This document shows, in pieces, positions 1,615 through 58,701 of a stretch of DNA of 64,000 nt. The stretch covers positions 9,424,001 to 9,488,000 of the forward strand of contig OW121857.1 of the NCBI GenBank assembly GCA_933228895.1, in the 5' to 3' direction. Position 1 is the stretch's first letter. The number at the start of each line of letters is the position of its first letter. The position numbers were made by a program, and so were the translations under genes. This DNA comes from Platycnemis pennipes (taxonomy: Eukaryota > Arthropoda > Insecta > Odonata > Platycnemididae). The notes below the pieces were generated by a model that saw nothing but the letters and a program-made list of their open reading frames with translations, did no database searches and had not been told where the DNA came from.

Positions 1615-2195
1615 CTAGGTTCGATTGGCCACACTGACACTTTTACTCCGCCCTACCTTATTCGGACCCCAACAAATGTAACCCGCGCTCATGTCACACC
1701 CACTAACCAGTAAATTCATCAGGACACTGTCCTTCATGTTCGGTGGCACCTGATGTTGCTGTGTGGAGCCATGCAGAGCGTTTGGTGCTATTTTGGCCGG
1801 TGCAGCAGCAGTCCTAGACTTGACATTCATCTGGACCTGGTTTCTGGCCTTGCCATTAGACGAAAGACCCTTCCCCAACCACCCGTTGACGTCCTCCTGG
1901 GACTTCCCTACTCCCAAGGAGTCTCCGCCCGGGGCAATCAACTGTTGCAGCAACTGAGAGCTGACCAACGCAGGGCTAGACTCCCCACTCCCCCCCCCTC
2001 CCTTGGGTCTCTTGCATAAAGACTCCTGCGAAAGCACCGCAGGACTTGCAGACGATGAGTTGTCCACTGGACGGCGCTTGCTCGTGTGGCGCTGTTGCCC
2101 TTCTCCTGCCCCCCCCCTGCTCTTGCGGCCATTGCTGGCTGCGCAGGAAGGAGCTCCGCCACCAGACACCCACTGTATCGTTTTCTCACTAGAGC
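1615..2195 (-). CDS. sima: HIF-alpha last coding exon: NLS-like region and C-terminal activation domain
   Basis: The acceptor is ...TACGTGAAG|GCTCTAG after a pyrimidine-rich stretch. The first two bases complete an AGC codon begun in the previous exon. The exon encodes 192 residues after the split codon and ends at TAG (1617-1615). It carries SKRRP and, about 20 residues on, CKRPKG, which resembles the LSWKRVKG nuclear-localisation half of vertebrate HIF-1alpha. Next come a Gly/Ser/Ala-rich linker, SSQLLQQLIAPGG and the activation segment DSVLMNLLVSGCDMSAGYIC. Aligned on the cysteine, CDMSAG corresponds to vertebrate CEVNAP. The residue at the FIH-hydroxylated Asn is Ser (codon at 1689-1687). 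Confidence 0.88.
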
Positions 2196-5100
2196 CTTCA
2201 CGTATTAGAAACGGGGAGAGATTACATTTTGACATGGAAGAATGTACAATTGTAAATAAATAGAAGGACCATTCAACGAACAGCTTGCCTCCATATTAAC
2301 ATTCTGAATTTTACATCAGTCACTTGGCTCACTATGGGCTGTCATTCACACTATATGAAGTGTGTCCAATAATTAACAATTATAGAAAAAGATTGGACAG
2401 AGGAAAAGGAAGAGCAGCCGCTGAATCATCACCTTGGTGATGAACAACATCATTTCAATGTCAAGTGCCGAGGTCAAGAAAAAAATAAGAGGCAGCAGGA
2501 AATTAAAGTTTACATGATGTACGTCTGCGAGGAGCATGAGGTGATGACTGTATGCTCAGGAAAAGCCTTATATAGGCCATGAAATTATGCAACATTAACA
2601 AAACTTGCTAGTTTTCAATGACATGTTGAGTGAAATAAATGACACAGCATCACGGATAGGTGGGTCACTTACTGTTTCTTGTGTAGACCTGATCTAATAT
2701 TTCGTTGGGATCCACCAGACCTCCTCCATGGTCATTCATCCTTACTCCAACTTTAGCAACTATAACATGGTCCTCATTGGTTGCCATGGTTTTCATCTTT
2801 TGGGACTGCTGAGACACTGTCTCCGTCCTTAACAACTGAGCCAGACTTGAGGTATCTAGGTTTTTGATGTCCGAAATGGTGGTGGACCTTTATTTAAAAA
2901 AAAAACTCGTACATTCAGTTTTGATTTTAACTAAGTTCTGTTTATATCTAAAAGGAGAAGTTCAGCCACAAATATGTAGTTAAATGATAAGGTTATGCCG
3001 GAAGAGCTGAATCATTTAGGGCTGAAATTAATACATTAAGTTCCACATATTATCAAATGACAAGGCTACTTAGTGGACCATTTTATAATTCAGGGGGAAG
3101 ATGTGGATGAAAATTATCTGAGCTAAAGTTGTGCTCAATCCGAAAGTTGTTCCAAGGAAGAGAAGATAAAGTGTGCAGAAACCTCACTTGTTGAGTCTTA
3201 AGGGGTGATATATAAAATTCATCCACTCCAAAAAGTTGACATACTTCAGTTGAGTGAAAAGTAATGATTGATGTTCCAACATGATGCTTTCCTCAGTGTG
3301 AGGCATTGTTTTGAAGTTCAATGGCAATGTGAAGAAAAGAAGGAGCAGCATAATTGGCTGGAAGCAAAATGCCATATGATATGCTCACGAAGATGGTACC
3401 AATATGTTTGATTTGAATTTAGGCAGCTCAAGCAACAGTTGACAAAGAATGAGGGAATCACGAGGCAATAAATGTCAATGCTGATCGAATCATAATTGCA
3501 ATTTAGCGCAACTTCCAGCGGGTTAAGTGAAAAGTCATGGATAATTAATTTCTCCAAAGAATGACTCCTGCAGCCATTGTTGCATACTTCATGAATCAAC
3601 TGCACATTGATAAACAAATACGGAATTAAAGATTTCTCCATCTATTACACTGATTCTTGCAGGGTAAAATCTCTGGCACAGTGGATTCCATTGTTGCCAT
3701 TACTTTTCACTCGACTACTGCAACACTCCGTTGGCAAGATGGGGAACCAAACAAGCAGGTCCCCACTTGAAAACCTACCAAGAGTCTTTCAGCAACTTCT
3801 CCTTCCTCCCCAATCCAATGCCGCTGACAGCATCGCCCCTGTTAGTGGGGCTTCCGTCCACCCCCCTGCCATTGTTCCCCCCAATCAAGTCCTCCCTGTT
3901 AATCGTCGCACCGTCTTCCACAAATATCTTTCCCCCAGCCTCCACCACAACTAGCTGCTCGGGAGAGGCACCCCACATGAGGTCCGTGGTGACAAGGAGA
4001 GGGAGGTCTTCCGCTATGGGGGGTATGTAAGGGGCCCGCATTCCCTGTTCGTCGTCACTCGAGTTGACCATGCCCATGTGCAGACTGCCCGTCAACCCAC
4101 CGAGAGAGTCATCGTCTTCGTCCTTCACACCTCCCACCAACGAACCACCACCACTCAACTCCGGACTGCCTAACGACGGGGCGTTCGACGACTTGAGGCC
4201 ACTCGAACACTATGAAGGGAGAGAAGACGTTTCATGCTTCCGGCATCCTCCCAAACGCACAACTGGAGCCATCATTTATTTTATTGCGTCACCACATTGG
4301 ATGACTACAAAGGAGTGAGGCAACTTGAAGAGAAAATTCTACCCTCAACAAATTGGAGTTAAATTTGTTATATCAAGGAGAGGAGAGAGTTAGTTGCCTG
4401 AGAAAAGTTGACGACATTTATACATAAGCTAAAATGAATACATAGATAATGATGACAGAGTTAAAATGGTGCATCTGCACCTTTATGTCATGTCTTGGAG
4501 AGACAACAAATGTAAATAGGGTTATGACAAAGGAAACAATATTTATCACAGAAATTCACAATTCATTTTAGAGTCAACACTCATCTCATAGGCTGTCAGG
4601 CCACCATTTTCTCTTCAATTACCACAAAAGTTTTAAAGACTTGACTTTTTATTTATACTTTCCAAAATCCTCAAACAGCTCACTTTATTTTCTTGGCTGA
4701 TACATTAAAGAAGTGAATTCTTTCTTAAACAATAGTTGAGAGGTTTTCTCACGTACATGTATAGAGAGGAAATTTTTTTATTCTTTTCATTGGCACAAAA
4801 AGGGATTGAAAACTAGATTTACAAGAGGTACTATTAAAAGGATAAATCAAAATACTGAACCATTCCACAGAAAAGGGTGATTTATTTTACAGCAACGGAT
4901 TTTCCAATACCAAAGAACCTTCAGATGCCAGTAGATGAGGAGCCAGGACAGGAAAAGTGACCGAAACTCTCGCATACGTCGCCCTGAAGACACCATGATA
5001 TAGGATAAATCTACATCCCTTTTCTGAGGCATGCATCCGAGCACTTCAATTCATTCCTCCAATACCACCGAGATTCAAGCAGCAGCCGGGTGGCGGGAAT

Positions 5101-6890
5101 ATTTCGTATACCTCAGAGGAGGAGAGGGGTGAGGTGGAGATGAAGTGATCGCTGGGCGAGCAAGAGGTGGACCCAGACGAGTCCTCTCGGTACGCCAGGA
5201 AGTGGTTCTCTTCATCCTTGCCCCCCCTCATGGGGTCCGCCAGGCCCCCCACCGTATCCGAGTCTTCGTCCTCTGGCACTGGCACCATGGACAGTGGAAC
5301 GCAATAGTCATCTGAGAGCATGATGTCATCGAACATGGAGTCCTCAAGGAAAGGGCCCCCACCAAGGGGAACACAGACATCCCCAGCAGTGGGGGCCAAG
5401 TGCGTCAAATCCTCAGGCTCCTCCTTCAACACTGTAAACGGATATGGGTGAAGAAAGCGTTCCTTCAGATTTTAGAGGGAAAAGGATTTAAAGCTGAGCA
5501 CAAAAATTACTCCAATATTCCTCACATTGGAATAGGAGAACCTAAATTAATGGCAGTGTATTTTAGAAGAGAGTAAAAATAGCATTACATCCCCCAAAAA
5601 ATGTTCGTTGATAACTTTGTTATGATTCAGCAACAATCCACTCAAAGTATAACATTTTAATGGACTTTACCTTTAATGGGGAATTTGAAAGTTTAGCTAT
5701 TGCTATTTCCTTTACTTTATGAACAAGACAAAAGAACTATTCTAATGGGAGTGAGGTTAAAAAAAGTCTTGAAACTTACTAGAGTTCCTAGCACTCTCGT
5801 TAAAAGTAATGGATATAGAATCATGAAAAATATGGTGGTGAGTTTTAGGTATGTTGTTTGAGTGAAACATTTCATTGAGGTGATAACAGATGCCAGTTAC
5901 AGCCAAAAGTTCTACCACCAAACTTTCTTCATCAATCTGCAGTGTCAATATTAAACAAGAGGAAGTGGTACCAAAAGTGGTGCACGTCATTTCAGCAGTA
6001 ATTCAATGGTGTACACTCTGATCGTCTAAAGTTGATACCATGGGCCTGCCTTCCATTGGGAATGTAAGGTCAAAGTTTATTGAGATTATCTCATAGCATC
6101 TCACTAAAATCTAAAACTCAATGCTTGATCCATAATTAGGTGAAGGCCTTGTCTTAGGCATGTTGTCAATCTGAAGAGAATTTCTCTCTATGAAACACCT
6201 GCCATTCATCAAATTATGGTGACTTTTGATCTTTATTGAGGTTGAGCAAATACATTAAGGAAGGAGCTTTGTGGTTTCCAGTGGATTCCAACTTCCATTC
6301 CAACTGAATTGCTGGCAGAACCATCTCAAAGGGGTTCTTACACCGATTCAGACCTGGAGGGAAAAATGCCTCATCCACAATTGGGAATAAAAAGGCTATA
6401 ATTCATGCTTAGCGTCTTTCCACACGTGGAAGACAGGCCGGCGATAGGAACCCTAGATGATGAGCGAAGAGTGTGAACGTTGCCACCAAGATGGCGACGC
6501 AAAGTGTTGATCCGACTGGGATGGAGTGACAACTCACTCGTGAGGCCCGGTTCGTCGTCCGAGAACATCAAGAAGCCCTTGTTCATCTCTTCCGTCCTGG
6601 GCACGAATATCTTGGAGGTGGTGGCCTGGGGGCGGGGGAAGAGGGTCCTCGGGGGCGGGAGGGGCGGCTCCTTCAACTGTTCCTCCTCCAGGCCGCCTTC
6701 CCCGGCGCCCTCCTTGTCCTCGAACAGGGAGGGCGCATCGGAGGGCAAGTCGGCCGGGGGCAGGCCCGGGGCGGAGGTCGCGTCAGCCGCCCTCCGTTCC
6801 ACCGTCACGGCCTCCGCCTTGGCGCTGTCGCGACACGCCTCCGCTACGAGCTGGCTGCACGAGAACACTTCATTCCGACGCTCGATGCCA
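1615..6890 (-). CDS. sima: Hypoxia-inducible factor alpha (HIF-alpha / Similar), 3' five exons of the gene
   Basis: HIF-alpha is a bHLH-PAS transcription factor that pairs with ARNT/Tango and activates hypoxia genes. In normoxia prolyl hydroxylases mark it for VHL-dependent degradation. Five minus-strand exons (6890-6538, 5431-5112, 4209-3779, 2887-2673, 2195-1615) join with GT-AG introns and fully matching phases to give about 632 residues. Diagnostic parts, numbered from the first complete codon: KIFVPRTEEMNKGFLMFS near 92-109, an N-terminal degron LTHLAPTAGD with Pro131, a C-terminal degron RAPYIPP with Pro284, basic clusters (SKRRP, CKRPKG), and a C-terminal activation region DSVLMNLLVSGCDMSAGYIC. 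The bHLH and PAS domains are missing from the window, so the model is 5'-partial. No frameshift or internal stop was seen. The asparagine target of FIH in vertebrates is replaced by Ser. Naming rests on the two degrons in the right order and spacing; telling HIF-1 from HIF-2 type is not meaningful in insects, which usually have one gene. Confidence 0.9.
2196..2672 (-). other. HIF-alpha intron (477 bp)
   Basis: Donor A|GTAAGT at 2673/2672 and acceptor GAAG at 2196. It is a phase-1 intron. No element or conserved site was recognised inside. Confidence 0.8.
2673..2887 (-). CDS. sima: HIF-alpha linker exon between the C-terminal degron and the last exon
   Basis: This 215-bp exon has no usable start codon of its own and was found by splice and phase logic. 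The acceptor TTTAAATAAAG|GTCCACC supplies the last base of a TGG codon opened by the upstream exon, and the donor AGAAACA|GTAAGT leaves one base for the next. The reading frame is open across 71 codons and begins STTISDIKNLDTSSLAQLL. A later stretch reads MNDHGGGLVDPNEILDQV. No named domain. The phase fit on both sides and the strong donor support it as a real exon. Confidence 0.8.
2888..3778 (-). other. HIF-alpha intron (891 bp)
   Basis: Donor CTCTTG|GTAGGT at 3779/3778 and acceptor AATAAAG at 2888; phase 2. No repeat element was recognised. A short extra exon inside cannot be excluded, but the phases of the two neighbours match without one. Confidence 0.75.
3779..4209 (-). CDS. sima: HIF-alpha exon with the C-terminal oxygen-dependent degron
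   Basis: The acceptor CTCTCCCTTCATAG|TGTTCG opens in phase 0 and the donor is TCTTG|GTAGGT. It encodes 143 residues plus two bases of a Trp codon. After an acidic Ser/Gly-rich stretch (VKDEDDDSLGG) comes GMRAPYIPPIAEDLPLL, equivalent to human LEMLAPYIPMDDDFQL. The proline codon for the hydroxylation site is at 4032-4030. In this family the hydroxylated proline is bound by VHL. The residue before AP is Arg rather than the Leu of vertebrates. The rest is Gly/Asp-rich and shows no motif I recognise. Confidence 0.9.
4210..5111 (-). other. HIF-alpha intron (902 bp)
   Basis: Phase-0 intron between GAG|GTATAC and CTTCATAG. A second possible donor, CTCG|GTGGTA near 5073, lies downstream but would break the phase with the next exon, so GAG|GTATAC was chosen. 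No repeat was recognised. Confidence 0.75.
5112..5431 (-). CDS. sima: HIF-alpha exon with the N-terminal oxygen-dependent degron
   Basis: The acceptor CCGTTTACAG|TGTTGAAG supplies TG to complete an ATG codon split by the intron. The exon reads MLKEEPEDLTHLAPTAGD at its start and ends in SSSE before GTATAC. LAP of LTHLAPTAGD is the N-terminal prolyl-hydroxylation site (proline codon 5393-5391), matching human LTLLAPAAGD. The preceding LKEE fits the psi-K-x-E SUMO consensus, and the human protein has a SUMO site at the same place. The acidic patch MFDDIMLSDDYCVPL follows, then an acidic Ser-rich tail. The exon adds 106 whole codons. Confidence 0.92.
5432..6537 (-). other. HIF-alpha intron (1106 bp)
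   Basis: Donor CACGA|GTGAGT at 6538/6537 and acceptor TTTACAG at 5432; phase 1, splitting ATG. Nothing coding or repetitive was recognised. Confidence 0.8.
6538..6890 (-). CDS. sima: HIF-alpha exon after PAS-B: KIFVPRTEEMNKGF region
   Basis: The acceptor is CCCTTTGCTCCTTCGCAG|TGGCATC with one base completing a codon from the missing upstream exon. It starts GIERRNEVFSCSQLV, which fits the end of the PAS-associated segment of HIF proteins (human SGIIQHDLIFSLQQT). A Glu/Pro-rich linker follows, then KIFVPRTEEMNKGFLMFS and DEPGLT at the donor. It encodes 117 residues. Its GC content is much higher than its surroundings. It is the most 5' HIF exon I can find in the window. Confidence 0.88.
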
Positions 6891-31570: not shown

Positions 31571-32091
31571 GGTCGTTTACCATATTTTTTATGCCGAATA
31601 TATTAGATTTTGTAAAATAAAAAGACCCATATTTTTCCGTTTCTTGATCCGCCAATTATTTATCGAGTTATAAGCGACGAAATACTGATGTTTTTAACCC
31701 TTTCGGAAAAAAGGGTTGGTACAATTTCTGACGTATACTTCGTCCAATCACAACTGAGCCCGCGAAGCTACTTTGCTTTATCCCAATGCTGGGGACACAG
31801 CTGACTCTGCCAATAGGAGCAGTTGCGATCACATCTGTGGAGCAGAACTTCCGAGAACTCCACTCCACTCCCTTCCCTTCCCCTAAAAGCAGTCAAGGAC
31901 GGGAGGAAAATGACGTCGATGTTATCAAAGAAGCTTTTTCGGAGGGCGTCAACTTTTGCTTATTTTAATTATTGACTTATGAGTGAATGGTTGTGGTTAG
32001 AAGATTAATTTTTTCACTAAAATTCTCTTTTCGTTTCCATCTAACAATTTCGGGTACAAAATTGCGATTTCGGTTCCGAGTAAACGCCCCC
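31571..32091 (+). repeat. 0.52-kb dispersed repeat R520, copy 1
   Basis: Runs from GGTCGTTTACCATATTTTTT to CGAGTAAACGCCCCC. Near full-length copies are at 33396-33918 (inverted) and 51237-51744 (direct), and a 55-bp end fragment is at 44295. The ends are short inverted repeats (GG..CGTTTAC). It carries no open frame of note and is probably a non-autonomous DNA element. No clear target duplication seen. Confidence 0.8.
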
Positions 32092-33055
32092 ATTGCATGG
32101 GCCCAATCCAGGCACGCAAGCGCTCACAGCGAAAAACTCTTTTAAAAATCGCATGAAACATACGAGGTAAAAACGTACGACAATTAGCTTAAGAGGAGGC
32201 TAGCAATAGGAACTTGAGACGCGCGGCACAACTCAAGGTGGGGGGCTTCTTTAGCGCCTCCGACTAAAATTATGACTATGAGAAATAACTTCATTGCACT
32301 ATACAAGACGCTCATAGTGGCGAAGGGAAAACTACATCGTGTAAAGCAATGAATTCAATTGAAAGATGCCTTAATTCACCGACGACTAAGCAGTGAAAAA
32401 CACAGACCTATCGTAATGCATTCAACCATGCGATTTGACCTAGCTCCAAACTGTTCAAGTAATTGCCTCGCGTAAAACGGCCCTGAGAGTGAAGAGCGTC
32501 TACGCAGAGCATAATCTGCTCTGATTATATATTTCGATGATCTTCAGATACATGTAGACAGTGAAGTGGTTGCTTATTCCTTTCAGATTGATCAAAAACA
32601 ATAAACAAAATCGATATCCTTGTAAACAAGGTGACAGATCGAGGAGACACGACGCATGTTTTGAAAACCTATGACTTCCCAACACAGTTTCTGCACTTAC
32701 ACGCCACATCTCTCGCGTCTGTACAACGAATGAGATACATAACCAGAAAAAAATCCAATTTCCTTCACGAAATTTGAACCACAGAATCCAATTTCCGGAA
32801 TAGAGGTCGTAGAGCTGGGGTGTAAAGGGATCGAGCGATCAAACTCGAGTCCGACTTCTCAACACCGGTTCCGTTTCGAACTGAATGCCCGGTGCTCCCT
32901 CACGAGAATCACACAATTCAGTTCAAGCTGCTTCGAAAGCGTTTACACCAATGGGTCCCAGCAGAGTAAAAGCTAAATGGTTACGAATTTCTATAAAAGT
33001 AGGCTGTTACAGTTCACAGTATCAGGCGTCACGTAGTGGAAGTGAGGCATATTGG
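32092..33055. other. No gene seen
   Basis: Spacer inside the inverted R520 pair. No coding or known repeat recognised. Confidence 0.4.
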
Positions 33056-33106
33056 ATGAGTAAAAAACTTTAGCACTTTTCCACAATATATTTAAAATAA
33101 TAAAAT

Positions 33107-33147
33107 TACACAACAAATGTTTCGGCTTACTAAGCCATCATCAGTGT
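33107..33147 (-). ncRNA. Hammerhead ribozyme motif, left arm
   Basis: Minus strand: CTGATGA (33144-33138), stem II TGGCTTAGTAAGCC, GAAAC (33123-33119), short stem III ACA-TT-TGT, T at the cleavage position (33112), then GTGTA. Compared with the right arm, one C before TGATGA is lost, so stem I pairing is disturbed. Both arms also have one extra T between CTGATGA and stem II relative to the textbook core. Activity is uncertain. Confidence 0.6.
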
Positions 33148-33162
33148 GATCACTCATGTGTG

Positions 33163-33205
33163 TACACCTGATGATGGCTTAGTAAGCCAAAACACGTGTT
33201 GTGTA
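33163..33205 (+). ncRNA. Hammerhead ribozyme motif, right arm
   Basis: Stem I 5' strand TACAC (33163-33167) pairs perfectly with GTGTA (33201-33205). CTGATGA follows at 33168-33174, then stem II GGCTT/AAGCC with loop AGT, AAAAC where GAAAC is expected (G12 replaced by A), and stem III ACA-CG-TGT. The predicted cleavage site is after T33200. The G12 change would be expected to cripple catalysis. Confidence 0.6.
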
Positions 33206-33395
33206 ATTTTATTATTTTAAATATATTGTGGAAAAGTGCTAAAGTTTTTACTCATCCAAAAATAGGCTGCTACTTTCACGGCGTATCTTTTTTACAGAGC
33301 CGCTCTATTGCGTCTACCTTTAATAATTTACTCAAACATAACATTCTAGAATATTCAGGCGATAACTGGGAAACATTGGCTCATGACTTAGGAAT

Positions 33396-33918
33396 GGGGG
33401 CGTTTACTCGGAACCGAAATCGTAATTTTGTACACGAAATTGTTAGATGGAAACAAAAAAAAATTTTAGTGAAAAAATTAATCTTCTAACCACAACCATT
33501 CACTCATAAATCAAAAATTAAAATAAGCAAAAGGTGACGCACACCGAAAAAGCTTCTTTGATAACATTGACGTCATTTTCCTCCCGTCCTTGACTGCTCT
33601 TATGGGAAGGGAAGAGAGGGGGGTTCTCGGAAGTTCTGCTCGCATAGATCCTGTCGCAATCGCTCCCATTGGGAGAGCCAGCTGTGTCCCCCCCATTGCG
33701 ATTAATCAAAGTAGCTTCGCGGGCTCAGTTGTGATTGGACTAAGTCGATGTACGTCAGAGGTTGCACCACGCCCACTTTTCCGAAAGGGTTAAAAACATC
33801 AGTTTTTCGCCGCCTATAACTCGCGAAATAATTGACGGACAAAAAACGGAAAAATACGGGTCTTTTTATTTTACAAAATCTAATATATTCGGCAATAAAA
33901 AAAATATGGTAAACGACC
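33396..33918 (-). repeat. Dispersed repeat R520, copy 2 (inverted)
   Basis: Inverse orientation to copy 1: GGGGGCGTTTACTCGG at its left end and ATGGTAAACGACC at its right. The two copies face each other across 1.3 kb, making a long inverted repeat that encloses the hammerhead palindrome. Confidence 0.8.
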
Positions 33919-38323: not shown

Positions 38324-38578
38324 ACGATTTATTAAATTAACGTTTGCGAGGAAAATTAATAAGGGAAACGTTAGTAGTATATACCACGCGGAAGACCTGA
38401 GAAAGCGGAATTTATGGAAGCGTTTTAATACGGGAATTTAGCAACCATTAGGCGAGTCAACAATATCGGGACAATTTGTCAATAAGGACGCTTAGGTTCG
38501 TGCGCGTCCAGTCAACAAAAAATTGCATTCACAACAATTAAAGTAAATTCTCTCGTCGAGGCGTTCGTTTTGGGCAAA

Positions 38579-40255
38579 ATGGCCACGGTTGTTAAATATT
38601 TGGGTGAATTAAAGAAGACAGAAATTGTCGAGGAATTAAAACAACTGGGTTTAGATACCGTGGGGATTAAGAAAGAATTAATTAACAGATTACGATCGGC
38701 ATTTGAGGAGAAGGGAATAAATATCGATACTCATCAATTTAAAATAATGGAGTTTCCCGCAGTCGGATCTAACATTATTGCATGGTTAGAAGAAAAAGAA
38801 AGAGTGAGGGAAGAGGAGAGAAAGAAGGAAAGGATGGAGCGAGAAGAGAAAAGAAGAGAGGAGCTAAGAGCCATGTTCGTCGAACAATCCGAACAATTGG
38901 GAGAGAGAATAGAAAAAGGGCTAGCAGCTCATTTTGAGGAAAGAATAAAGGAAGCGAAAGCCGAAAGGAACGAAAATGTCTACGCTTACATAGCAAGAGT
39001 AGAAGAGGGACAGAGTCAGATTCGCACGGAAGTGAGGGAACTGCGAGAAGAGAATAGAAAGGAAAATCATGAAGTAATTTTACGGAACGGGAAGGAGAAG
39101 GTAGTATGTCCATTCAAAGATCCAAAAATATATTCACAACAGCTGGTGATGCACATTGAAGAAATAAGGATGAAGGAGAACCATACGAAGCGAGAGAAAG
39201 CGAGCATTTCGAAGGAGGAAATAGAGAGCAGCATTGAACAAATACCGGAATTGTCCAGGGAAGAAAGAAGATTATTAGCGGAAATAGTAAAGGAGAGGAA
39301 GGAAATATTTTCGAGTACGCCTGGGAAAATAAAAGGGTATTCGTACAAGTTAGAGATAAGGGAGAAACGAGAATTTAATAATAAATATTATAACATACCG
39401 CTAAATCTACGTACGAAGGCAAGGGAAGCCATTAAGGAGCTGCTAGTCGAAGGAATAATTGAAAGTAGCACGTCGTGTTATATCTCGCCATTAGTTTGCA
39501 TTATTAAGAAGGATAATTCAATAAGATTGTGTATGGATGCCAGAGCTGTTAATAAGATAATCAGGCCAGACTATGCTACCTCCAGGACACCGAAAGAATT
39601 ATTTCAAGAATGTGCGAATGCTAAAGTCATGACCTCATTGGACCTCACGCAAAGTTTTTATCAAATCCCATTGGATCAAAATTCACGCAAATACTGTGCT
39701 TTTTCATTTGAGGGAAAAATCTATCAATTCACCAGAGTACCTTTTGGATGTGCCATTAGTAGCAGTGCATTGGTGAGAGCTCTTGATCATGTTTTCGGGG
39801 ATGAAGTCAACAATTTCTGTTTAAACTTCGTTGATGATTTATTAATAATTTCCCGGAATTTTACAGAACATTTAAGGCATTTGGAAATTGTCTTGGATAA
39901 GCTTAAAGCCTCGGGAATTACAATGAATTTTAACAAAGTAAAGTTCTGTAGACAGAAGATAGAATTTCTTGGGCATGAGATTACTACAGAAGGAATAACG
40001 ATTGCGGAGGAGAAGTTTGCGCCGATCCGAAATTTCCCACGCCCTAGGAGCAGGAAACAAGTTAAGTCATTTCTAGGACTAATAAACTACTACGCAAAAT
40101 TCCACATGGATCATGCACAGATGACTGCGATGCTGAATGATCTCACCAAGAAGGACCGAAAGTGGGAATGGAATGGGGCAGGACTTAGGCAGCGAATATG
40201 TAGCGGAAGAAATAGTCACAAGGTAATTAGAAATGCCTTTCGAGATATGTTTTAA
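38579..40255 (+). CDS. Gag (SAP domain) fused to a truncated reverse transcriptase
   Basis: 558 residues from the ATG at 38579. Residues about 10-40 (LKKTEIVEELKQLGLDTVGI onward) match the SAP DNA-binding helix pair. Residues 70-165 are a highly charged Glu/Arg/Lys coiled coil. From about residue 170 the sequence is pol: an RT domain with PLVCIIKKDNSIRLCMDARA, SLDLTQSFYQIPL (catalytic Asp355), VPFGC, and NFVDDLLIIS (Asp419 and Asp420). It ends in SFLGLINYYAKF and WEWNGAG, the thumb/connection region, then 25 unrelated residues to the stop. No zinc knuckle and no DTG/DSG protease motif lie between gag and RT, and RNase H and integrase are missing. The fused frame is uninterrupted, so it may be translated. 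Confidence 0.85.
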   Translation: MATVVKYLGELKKTEIVEELKQLGLDTVGIKKELINRLRSAFEEKGINIDTHQFKIMEFPAVGSNIIAWLEEKERVREEERKKERMEREEKRREELRAMFVEQSEQLGERIEKGLAAHFEERIKEAKAERNENVYAYIARVEEGQSQIRTEVRELREENRKENHEVILRNGKEKVVCPFKDPKIYSQQLVMHIEEIRMKENHTKREKASISKEEIESSIEQIPELSREERRLLAEIVKERKEIFSSTPGKIKGYSYKLEIREKREFNNKYYNIPLNLRTKAREAIKELLVEGIIESSTSCYISPLVCIIKKDNSIRLCMDARAVNKIIRPDYATSRTPKELFQECANAKVMTSLDLTQSFYQIPLDQNSRKYCAFSFEGKIYQFTRVPFGCAISSSALVRALDHVFGDEVNNFCLNFVDDLLIISRNFTEHLRHLEIVLDKLKASGITMNFNKVKFCRQKIEFLGHEITTEGITIAEEKFAPIRNFPRPRSRKQVKSFLGLINYYAKFHMDHAQMTAMLNDLTKKDRKWEWNGAGLRQRICSGRNSHKVIRNAFRDMF

Positions 40256-41962: not shown

Positions 41963-42276
41963 GGGGGCTGTGTGAAACCATCGAGATTATCTCGAATAGG
42001 TAACCAAGGAGTCACGTGGTACAACCAAGAAAGTGTTCGAATATTTGGTGTGTTTGTATCGCTCATTACAATGTCAATAATTGTTTTTTTTTTAGTTTTC
42101 CTCGCTCTAAGGCTCTATATTTGAGTCAGATAAGATAAAACTCGTGAAAAAAACAATACAGCGAGATTGTAATCTACGATTATAATAGACCAAATTTGCG
42201 AACCGTTTGTGTTTATACCACGTGACTCCTTGGTTACCTATTAGAGATAATCTCGATGATTTCAAACACAGCCCCC
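41963..42276. mobile_element. Long-TIR MITE, copy 1 (314 bp)
   Basis: Left end GGGGGCTGTGTGAAACCATC and, inverted, right end GGGGGCTGTGTTTGAAATCA. The inverted repeats go on through CGAGATTATCTC and AATAGGTAACCAAGGAGTCA to CGTGGTA, about 65 bp. The interior is AT-rich and non-coding. No clear target duplication. The superfamily is undecided. A second copy is at 45361. Confidence 0.85.
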
Positions 42277-45360: not shown

Positions 45361-46257
45361 GGGGGGTTGTTCTTGAAACCGCCGGGATTATCTCGAATAG
45401 GTAACCAAGGAGTCATGTGGTTCAAACAAGAAAGAGCGATGTTACTTTTCACTAGTTAGGCCCCACCCTGAGTATGCAGCCAGTGTATGGGATCCGAATG
45501 AATTAGGTTTGATCATAGAACTAGACAGTGTGCAGCGTAGAGCAGCTAGGTTCGTTAAAAGGTGTTACGATAGGTTGAGTAGCATTTCTGAATTAATAAA
45601 AGAATTAGGGTGGGAATCATTATCAGAGCGTAGGTTAAGGTACAGATTAAATCTATTGGAGAAATTTCAATCGGATAGCTTTACTGAAGATGTTAGGCAC
45701 ATATTAAAAACACCAGCGTATTATGCTAGATTCGACCAGATAAATAAGATTAGAGAGATAGATTGTCGTACCGATAGATTCAAAATGACATTTTTCCCCC
45801 CTACTATAAGAGTACAGAATAGGCAGCATAGCAAAGGGATAGGTAGGGGAAATATTTTAGAGTATTCTGTAGTGCATGATGCATGTATTAATCCTTTAAA
45901 TACTATGGATACTAACAATAAGTTGCATGAGACCCTATAGTTGCTTGTTTGCATGTCGGTAGTGCATGCTTGGTGATCTTCACCCCCTGCCACACACCCT
46001 CGCGGTGGCTTGCAGGGTATCGTGTAGATGTAGAAAAAAGGGTTCGAAATGGGGTATGTTTGTATTGCTCATTAAAATGTCGCTAATAGTTTTTTTTTAG
46101 TTTTCATCATCCTAAGGCTCCACATATGAGGCAGATGAGATAAAACTCGTGTAAAAAAACATAGTGAGATCGTGATGTACGATTCAAATAGACCAAATTT
46201 GCGAACCGGTCGTGTTTATACCACGCGACTCCTAGGTTACCTATTCGAGATAATCCA
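45361..46257. mobile_element. Long-TIR MITE, copy 2, split by a LINE-A
   Basis: Parts 45361-45433 (GGGGGGTTGTTCTTGAAACC, then GGGATTATCTCGAATAGG) and 46034-46257 (GGGTTCGAAATGGGGTATG to CTATTCGAGATAATCC). The join is at CAAGAAA / AAGGGTTCG, where copy 1 reads CAAGAAAGTGTTCG. The outermost right end is missing. Confidence 0.85.
45434..46033 (+). mobile_element. LINE-A 5'-truncated copy inside a MITE
   Basis: Open frame 45509-45940 (143 residues): IELDSVQRRAARFVKRCYDR, LGWESLSERRLRYRLNLLEK, DVRHILKTPAYYARFDQINK, IREIDCRTDRFKMTFFPPTI. It ends NGL-free with NPLNTMDTNN before the 3' UTR. The intact frame and intact tail suggest a young insertion. Confidence 0.92.
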
Positions 46258-56998: not shown

Positions 56999-57587
56999 TT
57001 CACTAGTTAGGCCCCACCTTGAGTATGCAGCCAGTGTATGGGATCCTAATGAATTAGGTTTGATCAGAGAGCTGGACAGTGTGCAGCGTAGAGCAGCTAG
57101 GTTCGTTAAAATGTGTTACGATAGGTTGAGCAGAAGATATTTCAGAATTAATACAAGAATTAGGTTGGGAATCATTATCAGAGCATAGGTTAAAGCACAG
57201 ATTAAATCTATTAGAGAAATTTAAATCGGATAACTTTACTCAAGATGTTAAGAACATATTAAAAACACCAGCGTATTATGGTAGATTCGACCAGATAAAT
57301 AAGATTAGAGAGATTGTCGTACTGATAGATTCAAAAAAAACATTTTTCCCTCATGCTATAAGAGAACAGAATAGGCAGCATAGCAAAGGAATAGGTAGGG
57401 GAAATATTTTAGAGTAGTCTGTAGTGCATGATGCATGTATTAACCCCTAAAATACTACAGATACTAACGATCTGGTTGCATGAGACATTATAGTTGCTGT
57501 TTGCATGTTAGTAGTGCATGCTTGGTGATCTTCACCCCCTGCCACACACCCTCGCGGTGGCTTGCAGGGTATCCGGTAGATGTAGAT
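56999..57587 (+). mobile_element. LINE-A 5'-truncated copy
   Basis: SLVRPHLEYAASVWDPNELG, RELDSVQRRAARFVKMCYDR, then an insertion at 57132 shifts the frame. Later NILKTPAYYGRFDQINK. A six-base loss lies in the EIDCRTDRF codons. Intact 3' UTR and tail. Confidence 0.88.
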
Positions 57588-58087
57588 GAAGAAGAATGCT
57601 GAGGGAAACAGAAACATCGCTGCTTTCAGTAACACTGACGAAAATCGATATTAAGTGATATCTCTCATTTCGCAGACATTAGAAAATCCTGTATTTTACC
57701 CGCGGGAAAATTTTCCTCCGGACGGAGACCACTCTAACAATATGTACTTGAGGCCCAAAAGGGACACGGTATCACTTAACCGATTACCGAACAAAATTTT
57801 ATGAATCAATACGTTCAAGAAATAATTTCAAATTTTAGGAAAGGTTATCATCCGCCCTATCAAACGTGACCTGCCACCACGAGACGAATGACAACTGCGT
57901 GGATGTAATAAAACTGAGATTTTGGACGACAAAGATAACAGGGTCAACCTCTGACACCAAATCTACAGGGAGTAAATCAGAGAGAGAGGAATCGAGAACT
58001 ATGAACCGACACTCCTTAACAACGAAATAAACGAGAGATGTTGAAGTTTATACAAAACTTACGAATGGGGAAAAGTAAGAGGCAATT
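57588..58087. other. No gene seen
   Basis: No recognisable feature. Confidence 0.4.
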
Positions 58088-58701
58088 CATCTACATCTAC
58101 ATCCATACAATACCCTGCAAGCCACCGCGAGGGTGTGTGGCAGGGGAGAAGATCACCAGGCATGCACTACTGACATGCAAACTAGCAACTATACTGTCTC
58201 ATGCAACTTGATTGTTAATGTCTACAGTATTTAAGGGGTAAGACATGCATCACGCACTACATAATACTCTAGAATATTTCCCCTACCTATCCCTTTCCTA
58301 TGCTGCCTATTCTGTTCTCTTATAGTACGGGGGAAAAATGCCATTTTGAATCTATCGGTACGACAATCTATCTCTCTAATCTTATTTATCTGGTCGAATC
58401 TAGCATAATACGCTGGTGTTTTTAATATGTGCCTAACATCTTCAGTAAAGCAATCCGATTGAACTTTCTCTAATAGATTTAATCTGAACTTTAACCTACG
58501 CTCTGATAATGATTCCCACCCTAATTCTTGTATTAATTCTGATACACTACTCAACCTATCGTAACACCTTTTGACGAACCTAGCTGCTCTACGCTGCACA
58601 CTGTCTAGTTCTCTGATCAAACCTAATTCATTCGGATCCCATACACTGGCTGCATACTCAAGGTGGGGACAAACTAGTGAAAAGTAGCATCGCTCTTTTG
58701 T
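58088..58701 (-). mobile_element. LINE-A 5'-truncated copy
   Basis: Minus strand; open 58620-58231 (129 residues): IRELDSVQRRAARFVKRCYD, LGWESLSERRLKFRLNLLEK, DVRHILKTPAYYARFDQINK, IREIDCRTDRFKMAFFPRTI. Upstream CYFSLVCPHLEYAASVWDPN. Tail at 58088-58165. Confidence 0.92.

Follow-up and report, generated by a model that had tools for sequence, protein, structure and literature searches.

Copies of a short palindromic element in Platycnemis pennipes suggest that Penelope elements insert by inward RNA copying from the two ends of a staggered DNA break

How Penelope-like elements (PLEs) integrate is unsettled: a self-priming proposal has been published, and work in vitro ends at the cutting and extension of both target strands. 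Small PLE hammerheads reportedly cleave as dimers (Lunse et al. 2017, as cited in PMC7761336). Two PLEs are among the described systems closest to the element studied here.

In Pen2a_Av of Adineta vaga, a GIY-YIG PLE, an inverted pseudo-LTR is joined head-to-head to a direct one; one inverted pseudo-LTR may carry a tail of about 31 bp, and the target duplication measures 9-10 bp (PMC3846280). For Poseidon/PAc of Anolis carolinensis, cutting and extension by the PLE protein are reported for each of the two target strands, with starts at two internal RNA sites, the tail being the stretch between them and falling near the ORF start (PMC11167929). In the same work the two strands showed no difference in start sites, and insertion still took place with mutated hammerheads (PMC11167929).

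Here we analyse a palindrome in a 64,000-nucleotide stretch of the Platycnemis pennipes genome (contig OW121857.1; hereafter the window), together with the repeat family to which it belongs. Repeated inserts of about 250 bp, each with its own junction, are a natural readout of the integration reaction. The structure of the copies suggests an insertion mechanism for Penelope elements in which RNA is copied inward from each side of a break with staggered ends.

The palindrome and its hammerhead motifs

An earlier note on this DNA had placed a palindrome at 33056-33257. It is confirmed, with a real extent of 33052-33259: two opposed arms surround a centre at 33150-33162, a one-sided tail reaches to 33010, and target duplications lie beyond. 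The inverted-repeat arms 33063-33144 and 33168-33249 are 96% complementary, and the outer arm ends 33052-33066 and 33245-33259 are 100% complementary. The parts of the window copy are:

32995-33006, no strand: target duplication, tail-side copy, AAAAGTAGGCTG; three more bases separate it from the tail
33010-33051, minus strand: tail of 42 nt, at one element end only, continuing the minus-strand arm
33052-33149, minus strand: tail-side arm, a pseudo-LTR copy; its hammerhead motif keeps G12, has stem I out of register and CTGATGA at 33138-33144
33150-33162, no strand: centre, the head-to-head join, different in nearly every copy of the family
33163-33259, plus strand: tail-less arm, a pseudo-LTR copy, from the inverted-repeat comparison
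33163-33205, plus strand: plus-strand hammerhead motif, from the sequence and a descriptor with G12 relaxed
33258-33269, no strand: target duplication, tail-less-arm copy, AAAAATAGGCTG; its first two bases are common with the element end

The 12-bp target duplication of this copy (32995-33006 versus 33258-33269) contains one mismatch and sits right at the score threshold applied. The element is about 250 bp long and has no ORF or body, reverse transcriptase (RT) and GIY-YIG domain being absent in cis: none of the eight window ORFs scanned contains GIY-YIG, no PF01541 match falls inside the window among the genome matches listed, and the linked Penelope RT that the earlier note proposed to look for is not present in cis.

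The surroundings hold further repeats. Inverted stretches at 31862-32094 and 33393-33624 (92% complementary) flank the palindrome about 1.3-1.4 kb apart, and the palindrome may be nested in a larger inverted structure. Related inverted-repeat ends (GATTATCTCGAATAGGTAACCAAGGAGTCA...) at 41969-42268 and 45385-46256 likely represent another inverted-repeat element family; an Rfam MIR7996 match at 42014-42225 is below the gathering score. A long inverted pair at 56999-58681 consists of several aligned pieces, 84-94% complementary, and contains a retroelement-like ORF (58231-58620). At 38570-40255 lies a 561-aa ORF with SAP and reverse transcriptase domains, whose best homologues are 34% identical. 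An ORF on the minus strand at 5046-5432, with no Pfam match, contains LAPTAGD, reminiscent of the oxygen-dependent degradation motif of HIF-alpha.

Both arms of the palindrome carry CTGATGA, as had been noted (33168-33174 on the plus strand, 33144-33138 on the minus strand). The plus motif reads TACAC CTGATGA T GGCTTAGTAAGCC AAAA CACGTGTT GTGTA. Its stem I (33163-33167/33201-33205) is indeed perfect and A replaces G12 at 33189, both as first described; stem II spans 33176-33188, ACACGTGT lies at 33192-33199, and cleavage is predicted after 33200. Stem III can be read as this 8-nt palindrome. The minus motif has GAAAC and a whole CTGATGA heptamer, preceded by CACA in place of TACAC, so that the register of stem I is lost; this is the C that the earlier note had found missing before TGATGA. 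An extra T between CTGATGA and stem II (33175 in the plus motif) is present in both arms and was absent from that description.

We collected copies of the element from the 1.79-Gb genome with two queries. The first, 33056-33257, held both arms and no tail; the best 40 of 1,256 first-look candidates were scored, yielding 80 matches, two (one per strand) at each of 40 places, and all 40 places were read with flanks. The second, a copy with its tail included (L018), gave 40 places, of which 17 were new and all 17 were read. The sample is thus the top of two rankings, and single or tandem arms are under-sampled since the first query held both arms. One copy with the same flanks as another (L028, flanks of L027) was left out of the between-copy arm similarity, the first duplication counts, the motif and core-base tallies and the target context; it was kept for one-tail counts, centre comparisons and the reading of junctions.

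The consensus rebuilt from these genomic copies has the conserved core bases: the majority arm is a complete minimal type I motif, TACAC CTGATGA T GGCTTAGTAAGCC GAAA CACGTGTT GTGTA, with each core base kept in 73-78 of 78 arms. Of these arms, 69 have an undamaged CTGATGA and 37 a motif that is perfect throughout. Counted per independent copy, both motifs are perfect in 12/39, one in 13/39 and none in 14/39. The claim that the two motifs are each crippled differently therefore holds for the window copy and not for the family; the defects in both motifs are private to this copy, a decayed family member.

Chance offers a poor source for such motifs. CTGATGATGGCTTAGTAAGCC, with up to three mismatches, is found at the two motif sites only (expected, 0), although these two are not independent, the arms being inverted copies of each other. 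A hammerhead descriptor allowing one insertion has a single match in one strand of 30 Mb of order-1 Markov sequence; the family majority arm satisfies it with the insertion allowed and fails without it. With one core defect per arm, the window copy satisfies it only when position G12 is left free. By itself, CTGATGA is about as frequent as expected (11 observed, 8.9 expected).

Other tests lend the ribozyme reading less. On the window region there is no Rfam hammerhead match at the gathering score, the best score being 16 bits (RF00008, E 1.7), which counts against it; of the two refuting conditions named in the earlier note, the other, loss of the core bases in the family, is contradicted by the tally above and speaks in its favour. 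The Rfam hammerhead models likewise gave no match at E≤10 on eight loci with two perfect motifs, a search that had no PLE-hammerhead positive control; whole-genome searches with RF00008 and RF00163 gave 0 matches and are uninformative, since the controls were silent too. A pattern from the window motif had 0 matches in viral contigs. Folded on their own, the two motifs gain no stability over shuffled sequences (z -0.38 and -0.86), and no compensatory double changes were found in the stems across 78 arms, which are too similar for them. In the two copies folded whole, the transcript forms a single hairpin (-150 kcal/mol in L009, -174 in L018) that would hide a ribozyme. Plant-miRNA models of Rfam scored high on the palindrome, all below gathering, and were set aside as generic fits to a long hairpin. 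Judged from its sequence, the family motif is probably a hammerhead ribozyme by descent, putative in activity.

Relation to Penelope-like elements of the genome

GIY-YIG domains are plentiful in the genome: a search for them gave at least 117 matches above the cut-off among 150 scored, the best of 2,806 candidates, with open frames of up to 807 aa. We read 50 loci, which amount to fewer than 50 insertions: L056/L063, L057/L058 and L077/L078 are each two windows on one locus. Of the 87 matches lacking a locus, 53 are listed, most of two repeated-score groups being omitted, and 20 were read.

One of these PLEs links the palindrome to a pseudo-LTR. Arm columns 51-98, together with the tail as far as column 128, align to sequence that follows the GIY-YIG domain in L077, with 72.8% identity over 81 columns (E 1.3e-6); the local alignment scores 31.3, and the highest score among 300 shuffles is 18.3. 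This homology is confined to the outer half of the arm and the tail, the inner hammerhead half not being alignable. In L095, whose frames are interrupted, the upstream copy includes a tail-like stretch with an open frame into the PLE body; from the copy after the GIY-YIG domain the tail-like stretch is missing. None of the 50 loci read, among the at least 117 matches of 2,806 candidates, is a PLE with the palindrome family's own arm as pseudo-LTR. As the palindrome is about 250 bp long and lacks both RT and endonuclease, it is a derivative of a PLE and not itself one.

Hammerhead motifs are also found in these PLEs: 15 matches in 11 of the 50 loci (0.22 Mb), where a looser descriptor (0.5 per Mb per strand) would give about 0.2. 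In all 15 the core heptamer is followed by a single additional base, which is T in 12 of them, A in 2 and C in 1. They share the plan of the family motif with other stem letters, and many of them are copies of one PLE family. In a separate PLE locus, L084, a 540-nt unit at 2150-6174 occurs in three direct copies of 89-92% identity.

The full-size elements are inverted as well. Among the matches listed, all seven GIY-YIG pairs within 10 kb are head-to-head. We examined five inverted insertions (L077, L057, L073, L063/L056 and L088), with shared arms of roughly 500-960 bp. In the first four a perfect 12-bp target duplication directly adjoins one arm and is separated from the other by 36-53 nt, a distance taken up by the tail. 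The search provided for a tail at a single side, and with random flanks an equally good repeat turned up in 2 of 300 trials. In L088 the duplication is ambiguous, its flank being a microsatellite. L073 and L063/L056 have unpaired centres of 790 nt and 1,472 nt, which fit two cDNAs of unequal length. Opposed hammerhead motifs occur in L073 and L088. The earlier note had called a foldback element with two opposed ribozymes unusual: the arrangement is present, but the opposed layout is known for PLEs from the passages of PMC3846280 on Pen2a_Av. As a known habit of these elements, it is less odd than supposed.

Tails, centres and target sites

Every one of the 40 copies found with the tail-free query combines a pair of inverted arms with a single tail. 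The same holds for 17 of 17 further copies; here the query held the tail, and only the absence of a second one is informative. Overall, one arm per orientation and exactly one tail are found in 57/57 short copies. Beside one of them (L017), a 5S rRNA-like match on the minus strand at 285-406 scores 51 bits, above the gathering score.

Arms within one copy are more alike than random pairings (0.945 versus 0.913, a value reached in 0 of 5,000 permutations). This is what self-priming would produce, a single cDNA or antisense template folding back (snap-back) and copying itself into a palindrome, as proposed for Penelope in Adineta vaga in the relevant part of PMC3846280; many centres, too, are small near-palindromic loops. 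The same likeness is expected if both RNAs came from one source copy. Moreover, copying a strand back on itself should give equal ends, whereas in 57/57 copies one arm ends at a first start site and the other continues into the tail. For this reason we consider self-priming unlikely.

Junctions are readable in 44 of the 57 copies, and 41 of these are distinct. At three separate loci (L018, L027, L029) the arms are identical on either side, yet each centre is unrelated to the other two; L016 and L040 show the same combination. The join must then have been made at or soon after each insertion, since copying as a unit would keep the centre. Two junctions are shared, by L100/L103 and by L102/L104; relative to the tail they are mirror images of each other, and may reflect recurrent microhomology joining.

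A palindrome could still be copied whole if its centre were altered soon after insertion through cleavage of an extruded cruciform. Perfect palindromes are unstable, and in some copies part of one arm is lost near the join. Against this, many centres exceed a plain arm-to-arm join, with up to 28 nt of non-arm bases; recent copies with identical arms are already wholly different at the centre; and the full-size PLEs are head-to-head too, with the long unpaired centres described above. Whole-unit copying is, to our mind, improbable.

By score, a target duplication is present in 46 of 56 short copies, 27 of them with the modal 12 bp, compared with 1.1% for swapped flanks. As the duplication often overlaps the element end by at least one base, 12 bp is the length of a match and not a mapped cut. 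Across the nineteen 12-bp sites of the first copy set, 33 of the 38 bases next to the duplication are G or C; A is common before it and T after it. This dyad is as a symmetric pair of cuts would leave.

Long inverted arms, a short centre, a fairly constant 12-bp duplication and the lack of an Rfam hammerhead match would all suit an inverted-repeat DNA transposon (MITE or foldback) that resembles a hammerhead by chance. Its terminal sequences, though, are unequal: the 42-nt tail stands at one end only in 57/57 copies, which would not be the case in a DNA transposon with matching ends. New centres in copies with identical arms speak against it as well, as do the match of outer arm and tail to a PLE pseudo-LTR and the duplication length shared with PLE insertions, so that we hold this origin to be very improbable. 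The architecture had initially been compared to a Penelope-like terminal repeat, and that comparison is supported by the pseudo-LTR match (E 1.3e-6), the one-sided tail in 40/40 copies and the 12-bp duplication shared with PLEs. Least credible of all is a metazoan retrozyme spreading through hammerhead-cut circular RNA: the element is short, non-coding and hammerhead-bearing, and PLEs are suggested as helpers of animal retrozymes in a passage of PMC7761336, but animal retrozymes are direct tandem repeats with units of about 170-400 nt in the part of PMC7229834 that describes them, while here the units stand in opposite orientations and have their ends at PLE start sites instead of the predicted cut.

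Two-sided copying and comparison with known systems

We propose that the palindrome is probably a non-autonomous derivative of an endonuclease-bearing PLE: body-less, head-to-head pseudo-LTRs formed from two cDNAs primed at a staggered break. The pseudo-LTR homology, the single tail, the duplications, the freshly made centres and the symmetric target context are read directly from the letters of the copies. What we infer to lie behind them is a protein acting in trans, the point at which the RNA begins, the succession of steps and hammerhead cleavage, perhaps dimeric via ACACGTGT.

The RNA of the element would start just upstream of the minimal hammerhead motif and span two start sites of reverse transcription, the first where the arm ends (CATCCAA) and the second about 42 nt farther, where the tail ends. 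A PLE protein supplied in trans would make a cut in each target strand, with a stagger of about 12 bp. Both ends would then act as primers, one for a cDNA begun at the first site and the other for a cDNA begun at the second; the two would be extended to the 5' ends of the RNAs and joined head-to-head. Each such insertion would leave a palindrome that has a single tail and a centre of its own, flanked by a target duplication of about 12 bp. The opposed minimal hammerheads would be explained simply, as the 5' leaders of two cDNA templates. Their ACACGTGT, being self-complementary, would suit dimeric cleavage.

If start sites were chosen fairly and independently, the probability of exactly one tail in all 43 insertions (39 short and 4 long) would be about 1e-13. 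These counts suggest, as the boldest part of the model, a coordinated choice of start sites, perhaps by the two subunits of a dimer, a feature that the Anolis results in vitro would not lead one to expect. The short-insert family favours a reaction with a pair of cDNAs, two start sites and symmetric cutting; coordinated start-site choice is what it would predict.

More tentatively, and with somewhat less than even confidence, PLE integration might be obligately two-sided: a dimer of the endonuclease/RT would cut with a symmetric stagger of about 12 bp, and the two ends would always use different start sites. The palindrome family would then be a SINE-like parasite reduced to a ribozyme leader and two start sites. 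If so, each complete PLE insertion would be born as a head-to-head pair of cDNAs with exactly one tail, and an obligate two-sided reaction would explain the inverted pseudo-LTR and the one-sided tail together.

In the open-licence literature, as far as it was covered, we found no printed precedent for a body-less head-to-head PLE family. With dimer-cleaving PLE hammerheads the family shares the minimal type I form and the very short helix III, here the self-complementary ACACGTGT; those hammerheads sit in tandem pseudo-LTRs, whereas the present motifs lie in opposed arms and their activity is predicted. Like metazoan non-LTR retrozymes, it is a small non-coding retroelement with type I hammerheads and low G+C (compared with the relevant sections of PMC7229834). 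In those same sections, retrozymes appear as direct tandem repeats with canonical hammerheads, and no PLE tail is described (PMC7229834).

The likeness to Anolis PAc is mechanistic: a hammerhead stands upstream of two start sites that bound the tail, and both target strands are cut and extended. The PLE hammerhead as printed in that source has, by our reading of its letters, an extra U between core and stem II, like the T of the family (PMC11167929). PAc is autonomous and tandem, and its start choice is strand-independent in the sections concerned, whereas the palindrome family shows one of each start per insertion. Pen2a_Av offers the closest match in layout, with head-to-head pseudo-LTRs, a one-sided tail and a short target duplication in the passages that describe it (PMC3846280). 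The palindrome differs from that element in having no ORF or body, in its 98-bp arms, in forming a repeated family and in its modal duplication of 12 bp.
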